This document shows positions 47,235 to 50,924 of a stretch of 64,000 nt of DNA, in pieces. The notes beneath the pieces are model-generated. The model was not told where the DNA came from. It worked only from the letters and a program-made list of their open reading frames with translations, and did no database searches. This DNA comes from Brevibacterium sanguinis. Lineage in GTDB: Bacteria > Actinomycetota > Actinomycetes > Actinomycetales > Brevibacteriaceae. Location of the stretch: assembly GCF_003315415.1 (NCBI RefSeq), contig NZ_QNSB01000005.1, positions 186,001 to 250,000 of the forward strand, in the 5' to 3' direction. The translations under genes were made by a program, and so were the position numbers. Position 1 is the stretch's first letter. Each line of letters begins with the position of its first letter.

Positions 47235-48413
47235 GTGCGCGCTGTGTTCCTCATCTTCCTCAGGCTCGGCCTCACCTCGTTCGGCGGGCCGAGCGCCCAC
47301 CTCGCGTACTTCCGCGAGGCCTTCGTCGTCCGCAGGCGGTGGCTCGGGGAGCGGGCCTATGCCGATCTCGTCGCGCTGTGCCAGTTCCTGCCGGGTCCCG
47401 CCTCGAGCCAGGTGGGCATGGCGCTCGGACTGTCCCGGGCCGGTCTGCCGGGACTGTTCGCCGCCTGGGCCGGCTTCACCCTGCCCTCGGCGCTCCTGCT
47501 CACCGCCGCCGCGCTCGGGCTCTCACGGCTCGAGGATCCGGGGGAGAGCGGGTGGCTGCGGGGACTCATGGCCGCGGCCGTCGCGGTCGTCGCCCACGCC
47601 GTCCTCGGCATGGCCCGCTCGCTGACCCCGGATGCCAGGCGCGCGGGCATCGCGGTCCTCGTCCTCGCGATCACGATCCTGGCCCCCGGTGTGTGGACGA
47701 CGATCGCCGCGCTCGTCCTCGCCGGGCTCCTCGGGGCGCTGCTGCTCCGCAGCGAGGCCCGCGGCGTCGGCGACGACGAGGTCGAGGAGCTGCAGGTGCC
47801 GCTGTCGCGACGGGCCGGGGGAGTCAGCCTGCTCGTCTTCGGCCTCCTGCTCGTCGGCCTGCCCGTGCTCGCCGCGGTCACCGGCGATCCGGCGCTGCGC
47901 CTCACCGACATCTTCTATCGGGTCGGGTCTCTCGTCTTCGGCGGCGGCCACGTCGTCCTGCCGATGCTCGACGCCGAGGTGGTCGCCGGGGGACTCGTCG
48001 ACGACTCGACGTTCCTCGCCGGATATGGACTGGCCCAGGCGGTCCCGGGCCCGCTGTTCACGTTCTCGGCCTTCCTCGGGGCCGCCGCGGGCTCGGATCC
48101 GAACGGTCTGCTCGGGGCGGTCATCGCCCTCCTCGCGATCTTCGCGCCCGCGGGCCTGCTTGTCTGCGGGACGCTGCCGTTCTGGGCGCGCCTGCGCCGG
48201 GCCGCCGGAGCGCGAGCGGTGCTTCTCGGCGTCAACGCCGGCGTCGTCGGGCTCCTCGCGGCGGCACTCTATGATCCCGTGTTCACCGAGGGAATCTCCT
48301 CGGGGCCGGCATTCGTCGTCGCGGTCGCCGGCTTCGCCGCACTGCAGACGACCCGGGTCCCGCCCTGGGCGCTGGTCGTCGGCTCCGCAGTCGTCGGTCT
48401 GCTCGTGCTCTGA
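47235..48413 (+). CDS. chrA: chromate transporter ChrA family protein
   Basis: A membrane protein of the CHR family, 392 residues in the long two-domain form. Each half starts with the family signature: FLRLGLTSFGGPSAHLAYF (residues 8-26) and the related FYRVGSLVFGGGHVVLPML (about 225-243), and each continues with a PGP block (LPGPASSQVG; VPGPLFTFSA). Family members export chromate, but substrates of many are untested. No chrB-type regulator is adjacent. Its end faces the dif-like site. Confidence 0.9.
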   Translation: MRAVFLIFLRLGLTSFGGPSAHLAYFREAFVVRRRWLGERAYADLVALCQFLPGPASSQVGMALGLSRAGLPGLFAAWAGFTLPSALLLTAAALGLSRLEDPGESGWLRGLMAAAVAVVAHAVLGMARSLTPDARRAGIAVLVLAITILAPGVWTTIAALVLAGLLGALLLRSEARGVGDDEVEELQVPLSRRAGGVSLLVFGLLLVGLPVLAAVTGDPALRLTDIFYRVGSLVFGGGHVVLPMLDAEVVAGGLVDDSTFLAGYGLAQAVPGPLFTFSAFLGAAAGSDPNGLLGAVIALLAIFAPAGLLVCGTLPFWARLRRAAGARAVLLGVNAGVVGLLAAALYDPVFTEGISSGPAFVVAVAGFAALQTTRVPPWALVVGSAVVGLLVL

Positions 48414-48476: not shown

Positions 48477-48513
48477 GTGCCGCGAATCAGAGGGGAGGCG
48501 CCCCGATGAGTTT

Positions 48514-48541
48514 ACTTGACATAATGTATATTATCGGCGTT
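48514..48541 (-). other. dif: candidate dif site (XerC/XerD chromosome dimer resolution)
   Basis: Read on the minus strand, this 28-bp site has an 11-bp XerC arm AACGCCGATAA, a 6-bp centre TATACA and an 11-bp XerD arm TTATGTCAAGT. The inner 26 positions agree with the actinobacterial dif consensus as I remember it, and the plus strand shares CATAATGTATATTAT with E. coli dif. It is an isolated AT-rich island in very GC-rich DNA, located between the converging ends of chrA and the UvrA-like gene. It probably marks the replication terminus. A related site inside a mobile element is the alternative, but no integrase or element ends are seen. Confidence 0.88.
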
Positions 48542-48545
48542 CTGT

Positions 48546-50924
48546 TCAAGCCGGTTCCCGCGCCCCGACGTACTCGGCCAGATGCTGCGCCGTCAGCGTC
48601 TCGCCGCGGCTGACGAGGTCGCGCGGCGTGCCCTCGAAGACGATGCGTCCGCCGTCGTGTCCGGCGCCCGGCCCGAGGTCGATGATCCAGTCCGCGTGGG
48701 CCATGACCGCCTGATGGTGCTCGATGACGATGACCGAGCGTCCCGAGTCGACGAGCCCGTCGAGCAGTTCGAGCAGGTTCGCGACATCGGCCAGGTGCAG
48801 GCCCGTCGTCGGCTCGTCGAGGATGAACACCCCGGCCTGGTCGGCGCTCTTCGCCGAGAGATGAGTCGCCAACTTCAGGCGTTGTCTCTCGCCTCCGGAC
48901 AGCGTCGTCAGGGGCTGGCCGAGACTGAGATAGCCCAGCCCCACCTCGGCGAGGTGGCCGGCGATCCTCCGGGCCGCGGGGATCCGCGACTCGCCCGCGG
49001 CGAAGTACTCGAGTGCCTCGCTGACCGGCATGTCGAGGACCTCGCGGATGTTCTTCCCGCCCAGGGTGTACTCGAGCACCTCGGCCTGGAACCCGCGGCC
49101 CTCGCAGACCTCGCACGGCGACGACATCCCGGCCATGACGCCGAGGTCGGCGGTGACGACGCCGGCGCCGCTGCAGTTGGGGCAGGCCCCTTCCGAGTTG
49201 GCGCTGAACAGCGCCGGCTTGACCCCGTTGGCCTTCGCGAACGCCTTCCGCACCGGTTCGAGCATCCCGGTGTAGGTGGCCGGATTGCTGCGCCGTGACC
49301 CCTTGATCGCCCCCTGGTCGATCGTGACCACGCGCTCGCGTGAGCTCAGCGAACCGTGGATGAGGGAGCTCTTGCCCGAACCCGCGACACCGGTGACGAC
49401 GGTGAGGACGCCGAGGGGAACGTCGACGTTGACGCCCGTGAGGTTGTGGGTGTCCGCTCCCCTGATCTCGAGCGCGCCGGTGGGCGTGCGGGTCTCGGTC
49501 CGCAGCGCCGCCCTGTAGCCCAGATGCGCGCCCGTCAGCGTGTCGCTGTCCCGCAGTCCGTCGACGTCTCCGGCGTAGCAGATCTGACCGCCGAGGGCTC
49601 CGGCCCGCGGACCGAGGTCGACGACGTGATCGGCGATGAGGATGGTCTCCGGCTTGTGTTCGACGACGAGCACGGTGTTGCCCTTGTCGCGCAGCTCGAG
49701 CAGCAGGGAGTTCATCCGCGCGATGTCGTGCGGGTGGAGGCCGATCGTCGGCTCGTCGAAGACGTAGGTGACGTCCGTGAGCGAGGAGCCGAGGTGGCGG
49801 ACGAGCTTGATCCGCTGTGCCTCTCCCCCGGACAGGGATCCCGAGGACCGGTCGAGGGACAGGTAGCCCAGACCGATGTCGATGAATGCCCGGACGGTCC
49901 CGGCGAGCGAGTCGACGAGGGGCTGGACCGTGGGATCGTCGATGCGGGCGAGCCAGGCGGGGATGTCGGAGACCTCCATCGCGCACACCTCGGCGATGGA
50001 GCGACCGGCGAGCCGGGAGCCGCGGGCGGCGGCCCCGAGCCTGGTGCCGCCGCAGTCGGGACACTCGGTGTAGACGACGGCGCGGTCGACGAAGGCGCGG
50101 ATGTGCTTCTGCATCCCGTCGCGGTCCTTGGACAGGAAGGACCGGCGGATGCGCGGGAGCAGGCCGTCGAACGTGAGGTTCGTCCCGTTGATGACGATCT
50201 TCTCCCCCTCGGCGTTGAGCAGCCTGTCCCGCTCGTCCGGGGTGAACTCACCGACCGGCTTGTCGGGGTCGAAGAACCCCGATTCGGTGTAGAAGCGCAC
50301 CGACCAGCCGCCGACCTTGAAGCCCGGGATGAGGATCGCCCCCTCGGCCAGCGACTTCGAGAAGTCGACGACCTCGGCGACGTCGATGTCGGTGGCGGTC
50401 CCCATGCCCTCGCAGCGGGGGCACATGCCGCCGCTCACGCTGAAGCTACGTTTCTCGACCTGAGAGCCCTCAGCCTTCTCGACGGTCATCGACCCGGTCC
50501 CGGAGACGGTGGGGACGTTGAAGGAGTAGGCGTTCGGGGAGCCGAGCGCCGGCTCGGCCAGACGGGAGAACAGGATCCGCAGCTTCGCGTTGATGTCGGT
50601 CACCGTGCCCACCGTCGAGCGGGGGTTGGCCCCGATCCTCTCCTGGTCGACGATGATCGCGGTGGTCAGACCCTCGAGGACGTCGACGTCGGGGCGGGCC
50701 ATGGTCGGCATGAAGCCCTGGACGAATGCGGAGTAGGTCTCGTTGATCATCCGCTGGGACTCCGCGGCGATCGTCGAGAACACGAGGGAGCTCTTCCCCG
50801 ACCCCGAGACCCCGGTGAAGACGGTCAGCCGGCGCTTGGGGATGTCGATGCTCACGTCCTTGAGGTTGTTCTCGCGGGCGCCGCGCACGCGGATGAGGTC
50901 ATGGGTGTCTGCCGGATGGGTCAT
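48546..50924 (-). CDS. UvrA-like ABC ATPase (class II, short)
   Basis: A duplicated ABC ATPase related to excision-repair UvrA but only 792 residues against about 950. Both halves have Walker A (GVSGSGKSS about 38; GVAGSGKSS about 505), signature ([22 protein letters not shown]) and Walker B with FDEPTIGLH and LDEPTTGLH. Zinc cysteines are kept (CPRCEG, CPDCGG, CPNCSG, CEVCEG). The UvrB-binding insertion near the N-terminus appears shortened, which marks UvrA2/DrrC-type proteins associated with drug or DNA-damage resistance. Fifth gene of the amine oxidase operon; ATG 50924 after GGAG. Confidence 0.88.

Follow-up and report, generated by a model that had tools for sequence, protein, structure and literature searches.

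Where does chromosome segregation end in Brevibacterium, and what marks the place? The question is raised by a 28-bp sequence at positions 48514-48541 of a 64,000-nucleotide stretch of Brevibacterium sanguinis DNA. This stretch, called the window here, comprises bases 186001-250000 of contig C5 (361 kb) in a draft genome of 3.77 Mb and 23 contigs. From its letters the 28-mer was originally predicted to be dif, the chromosomal site at which XerC, XerD and FtsK act at division, and the replication terminus was placed in the window with it. We find that the sequence occurs once in the genome, is conserved throughout the genus, lies opposite dnaA in closed genomes of relatives and falls within the roughly 2 kb in which a polar motif, GGGGGAG, changes strand. 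On this evidence the 28-mer is almost certainly the single chromosomal dif site of Brevibacterium.

The 28-bp site and its conservation

The predicted sequence is present at 48514-48541 letter for letter. In full, the plus strand reads ACTTGACATAATGTATATTATCGGCGTT, with the parts ACTTGACATAA-TGTATA-TTATCGGCGTT; on the minus strand, running from XerC to XerD, the parts are AACGCCGATAA-TATACA-TTATGTCAAGT. The features are as follows:

48514..48541, minus strand: dif site, 28 bp, XerC arm-centre-XerD arm (sequence read, genome scan, relatives, alignment)
48531..48541, minus strand: XerC-type arm AACGCCGATAA (assigned by alignment to published dif sequences)
48525..48530, minus strand: central region TATACA (sequence read)
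48514..48524, minus strand: XerD-type arm TTATGTCAAGT, identical in its letters to the Frankia alni arm (alignment)

How close is this to known dif sites? Kono et al. (2011, PMC3025954) report predicted dif sites in 66 of 66 single-chromosome actinobacteria; the Escherichia coli, Bacillus subtilis and F. alni sequences compared here are taken from that paper, with the F. alni prediction as the seed. Aligned arm to arm, the site has the form expected of dif in this phylum, a 6-bp centre flanked by a XerC arm and a XerD arm, with 3 mismatches in 28 to the predicted F. alni dif. Both are 28 bp long with an 11-6-11 layout and the same XerD arm; two of the three differences lie in the centre and the third at the outer end of the XerC arm. 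The dif sites of E. coli (9 mismatches in 28) and B. subtilis (8 in 28) are alike in layout and inner arms. When the site is aligned in the opposite orientation, the mismatches number 11 for E. coli, 11 for B. subtilis and 15 for F. alni.

A chromosomal dif should be present once, and this one is. At three or fewer mismatches the 28-mer has one place in the whole 3.77-Mb genome, so the scan for further copies proposed with the original prediction returned none. The 19-base core and an actinobacterial-type pattern that we composed also have one genomic place each at this threshold. Within the window the only match is the site itself, and 100 dinucleotide shuffles of the window yield no match. 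The next best places on C5 stand at 10 mismatches from the F. alni dif. Because there is no second copy at three or fewer mismatches anywhere in the genome, an integrated element bounded by two copies of the site, the arrangement that was to have overturned the prediction, is excluded at that threshold, and we reject a dif-integrated element in the window.

The site is conserved in relatives. A 25-base pattern, allowing two mismatches, is matched in 44 of the 59 genomes searched: all 37 of the same genus, counting the organism's own, and 7 of the 22 from elsewhere in the order. Among the 36 other genomes of the genus, 35 carry one copy and one, the metagenome assembly G023, carries two. Its two matches lie on contig ends and have the same flanks with scattered differences; we reject a true duplication, and the matches are probably a single locus assembled in two versions. 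Across 38 sites whose flanks are distinct, 22 of the 28 positions are invariant, most of them fixed by the search pattern itself. On the plus strand the XerD arm has a G here where most other Brevibacterium sites have an A. The 25-base form is also matched in 33 named stretches, 28 of them Brevibacterium records; the other five come from two Gordonia, Millisia brevis, an Acidimicrobiales assembly and a Symbiobacterium assembly.

Does the site lie where a dif should, opposite the origin? The answer comes from relatives, because dnaA and the site are on different contigs of the draft genome. In all seven single-contig relatives measured (G003, G012, G019, G025, G026, G027 and G032) the site is opposite the origin: the shorter arc from dnaA to the site spans 0.461-0.497 of the circle.

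A polar motif that switches strand at the site

The strongest evidence for the site is a short G-rich motif. We screened 5- to 8-mers with at least 20 occurrences, scoring how far each changes strand at the site. Among the 7-mers GGGGGAG ranks first, whether C5 and the closed relative G012 are taken jointly or separately. On C5 it occurs 77 times on the plus strand and never on the minus strand to the left of the site, and 44 times on the minus strand and never on the plus strand to the right, so that 121 of 121 copies converge on dif as is expected of motifs around such a site. The strand switch falls between -697 and +1309 of the site. When the boundary is shifted along C5 in 13 steps, the top 7-mer score peaks at the site. 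In the window itself there are 21 copies to the left of dif, all on the plus strand, and 8 to the right, all on the minus strand. The copies nearest to dif, with a variant that lies nearer still, are:

47817..47823, plus strand: nearest GGGGGAG on the left, pointing toward dif (motif scan)
49823..49829, minus strand: nearest GGGGGAG on the right, pointing toward dif (motif scan)
48491..48497, plus strand: nearest polar RGGGGAG on the left (AGGGGAG), pointing toward dif and overlapping a purine-rich element described below (motif scan)

The polarity extends to other genomes. In G012, 114 of 115 copies fit, with the switch between -1397 and +1143, and 76 of 78 point toward dif in 20 stretches sampled from the rest of that chromosome. 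The figures are 150 of 152 in six further closed relatives and 148 of 150 in seven genomes of other genera. The switch interval contains the site in G012 and in all 13 further genomes (seven of the genus and seven of other genera, G012 included).

The motif is sharply defined. Of all 21 single-base variants of GGGGGAG, AGGGGAG alone matches its polarity (37:2 on C5, 33:3 in G012); CGGGGAG is not (69:66 and 43:37). We therefore write the motif as RGGGGAG, where R is G or A. In this form it points toward dif in 158 of 160 cases on C5, 184 of 190 in the six closed relatives, 179 of 184 in the seven genomes of other genera and 251 of 251 in the 33 named stretches. A further count took in 62 of 63 stretches (L003 left out), many of them DNA of the named stretches, and found no motif pointing the wrong way. 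In the Symbiobacterium (L044) and Acidimicrobiales (L034) assemblies the motif has the expected orientation on the one side of dif that is covered; L044 is possibly a mis-binned contig.

Is this motif the counterpart of the FtsK-orienting polar sequences (KOPS) of E. coli? KOPS are GGGNAGGG, G-rich and oriented to dif, and GGGGAG makes up their first six letters when N is G. The E. coli sequence itself has no polarity on C5 (+38 and -28 to the left, +19 and -17 to the right), and we reject it as the guide motif here. GGGGGAG has features expected of KOPS: it is oriented to dif on both arms, switches there and is over-represented, with 121 copies against a second-order Markov expectation of 68 on C5 and 115 against 35 in G012. 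It is not new as a motif, since it is the core of one of the octamers, G(A/T/C)GGGGGA and (T/C)GGGGGAG, plotted for Corynebacterium genomes as architecture imparting sequences (AIMS; PMC3219685, PMC3022926). Those octamers, with the core GGGGGAG in common, are biased to the leading strand and serve there to place dif; the passages covered name no FtsK role for them. In contrast to the AIMS octamers, the motif described here includes AGGGGAG as a polar form and excludes CGGGGAG as non-polar.

Recombinases, neighbouring genes and alternative readings

Recombination at dif calls for XerC, XerD and the gamma domain of FtsK, and the genome encodes them, XerC as a candidate below its cut-off. The XerD gene on C16 (340 bits) and FtsK gamma on C1 (86.8 bits) score above their cut-offs. 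The XerC candidate, also on C1 (L106, about 423989-425053), scores 298.5 bits against a cut-off of 335.15, and XerC is its best match of the XerC and XerD families. The open reading frame (ORF) that precedes it we take, from its letters, to be DprA.

Two converging genes flank the site:

47235..48413, plus strand: gene of the chromate efflux transporter family (TIGR00937, above cut-off)
48546..50924, minus strand: gene for a UvrA-like protein, 792 aa (TIGR00630, 681.5 bits, below the cut-off of 729.8)

The site lies in the 132-base gap between them. The ORF coordinates bear out the original description of a site four bases from the stop of the UvrA-like ORF with a neighbour converging on it. 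In many relatives the UvrA-like gene is about 800-940 bases from dif, as against 35; it directly adjoins dif in the window species and in L051. At L042:3810-4307 a gene for a small secreted protein, which presumably resembles transglycosylase-like proteins, stands between dif and the UvrA-like gene.

Several observations weigh against identifying the site as dif. The organism's own dnaA is on C2 and the site on C5. The 15-mer CATAATGTATATTAT, put forward in the original prediction as common to the site and E. coli dif, is indeed present in both, but in E. coli it stands in the opposite XerC/XerD orientation, a match that arises because the site is near-palindromic. In the XerC candidate about 56 residues of low-complexity sequence are inserted between the N-terminal and catalytic parts; the length of this region varies between species, and the matches in relatives are longer or shorter there. 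GGGGGAG was initially chosen because it switches at the site, so that the independent evidence is that from the other genomes and from the sampled stretches of G012. Finally, GC skew does not shift at the site: in the window and along C5 it stays weakly positive to the left and to the right. The original prediction held that the absence of a skew change near 48.5 kb would speak against dif, and no change is found there. We do not take this as a refutation, because in closed G012, whose site lies opposite dnaA, the skew is likewise weak and irregular: there the cumulative curve has its turning point about 100 kb left of the site, and on the right flank the skew is mostly positive, strongly so beyond 100 kb. 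A skew shift is a usual companion of dif and not a defining part of it, and the polar motif and the distance from dnaA in relatives outweigh the skew result. As a marker of the site we reject GC skew. The claim that the replication terminus lies in the window is supported for a segregation terminus, the point at which the polar motifs converge and switch strand.

Could the 28-mer instead be the attachment site of a mobile element that exploits Xer, such as a phage or an integrative mobile element exploiting Xer (IMEX)? Xer-exploiting elements carry dif-like sites, and a gene for a phage-type tyrosine integrase (L108, C5 151479-152306) lies about 83 kb to the left of dif, outside the window. 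We consider this very improbable: the genome has no second copy of the site at three or fewer mismatches, the genes on either side encode a chromate transporter and a UvrA-like protein, every genome of the genus searched has the site, the strand switch of the polar motif coincides with it in relatives as well, and no viral contig matches a 23-base form of it. Relatives already largely show the site with these neighbouring genes and no element nearby. A looser 15-base pattern matched at least 120 stretches, from which we draw nothing. The L108 integrase gene adjoins an ORF resembling an XRE-type regulator.

A different doubt accepts dif and concerns the motif. RGGGGAG may owe its skew to leading-strand mutation or codon bias, or to another process on that strand, and may not guide FtsK at all. 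Its polarity over the whole G012 chromosome, and not just near dif, would fit such an origin, as would its density on C5, which runs from 3 to 10 copies of GGGGGAG per 20 kb with no clear rise toward dif. In G012, however, the 20-kb stretches beside dif hold 9 and 12 copies and the others 2 to 9. Polarity is almost absolute while GC skew is weak, variants that differ by one base diverge sharply (GGGGGAG 121:0, AGGGGAG 37:2, CGGGGAG 69:66), and GGGGGAG exceeds its Markov expectation in both genomes. On these grounds we think it unlikely that the motif has no part in guidance.

If the site is dif and RGGGGAG its guide, the order of events can be proposed by analogy with E. coli, from which we infer the binding, guidance, activation and recombination steps. 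The arm at 48531-48541 would be bound by XerC and that at 48514-48524 by XerD. During septation FtsK would load on the RGGGGAG motifs that point at dif along both chromosome arms and translocate DNA until it reaches XerCD bound at dif. Its gamma domain would then activate XerD, and one crossover at the 6-bp centre would convert a chromosome dimer into two monomers.

The XerD side of dif

What lies just outside the XerD arm? Comparison of flanks in the genus reveals bases -22 to -11 conserved at a fixed spacing from the arm, with bases further out not conserved. Here the place is taken by a purine-rich element:

48492..48499, plus strand: KOPS-like purine-rich element GGGGAGGC, pointing toward dif, outside the XerD arm at -22 to -15 (flank comparison)

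The element matches E. coli KOPS in 7 of 8 letters, and a KOPS-like, purine-rich element occupies this position next to dif in other Brevibacterium loci (L005-L064). Its conservation was counted in 33 sites whose flanks are no more than 55% identical; short flanks, near-identical flanks and five sites from other genera were left out, and the sites are related by descent, so that the counts are not independent. Position -20 is G in 30 of the 33 (1.48 bits), and flank columns outside -25 to +27 carry at most 0.72 bits each. All five positions from -22 to -18 are purines in 23 of the 33, whereas the mean for the remaining five-base windows in these flanks is 1.2. Inspected by eye, 13 flanks from other genera (two of which are the same DNA) show no comparable constant element; CATCNGATGCAATA stands at the element's place in two of the 13 and in one Brevibacterium. 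We suggest tentatively, from these alignments, that the dif of Brevibacterium may be composite, with an element of about GGGRRNGG (R, purine) 15-22 bases outside the XerD arm acting as the last docking or loading site of FtsK beside XerD. Such a role is possible, though doubtful.

In Millisia brevis another arrangement is seen. Beside dif, L048:3342-6516 encodes a 369-aa tyrosine integrase (PF00589), an HTH_26 protein and a protein of 502 aa that matches no Pfam family. The dif-side end of this region has GTGATTCATCTGATGCAATA-Y-GCAG in common with Brevibacterium G016 (L012), at equal spacing, and CATCGGATGCAATA is also found at that place in G041 (L152), which belongs to another genus. This sequence may mark one end of a dif-targeting element or be a further XerD-side element. 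It has three matches by letters in viral contigs, none with dif beside it, no match in phage records and one match in the 59 genomes, G016 itself. Relatives of the Millisia integrase occur in two of the 59 genomes, G016 not among them. Searches of viral contigs, phage records and these genomes found no such element with both ends.

A literature search on Brevibacterium and the dif site returned, judged by titles, no paper on a Brevibacterium dif. The site described here fixes the segregation terminus of the genus. The strand switch of the polar motif places dif to within about 2 kb, and does so also in draft genomes and in cases where GC skew is no guide. The sharply defined RGGGGAG, with the extra element on the XerD side, provides candidate FtsK signals in actinobacteria.
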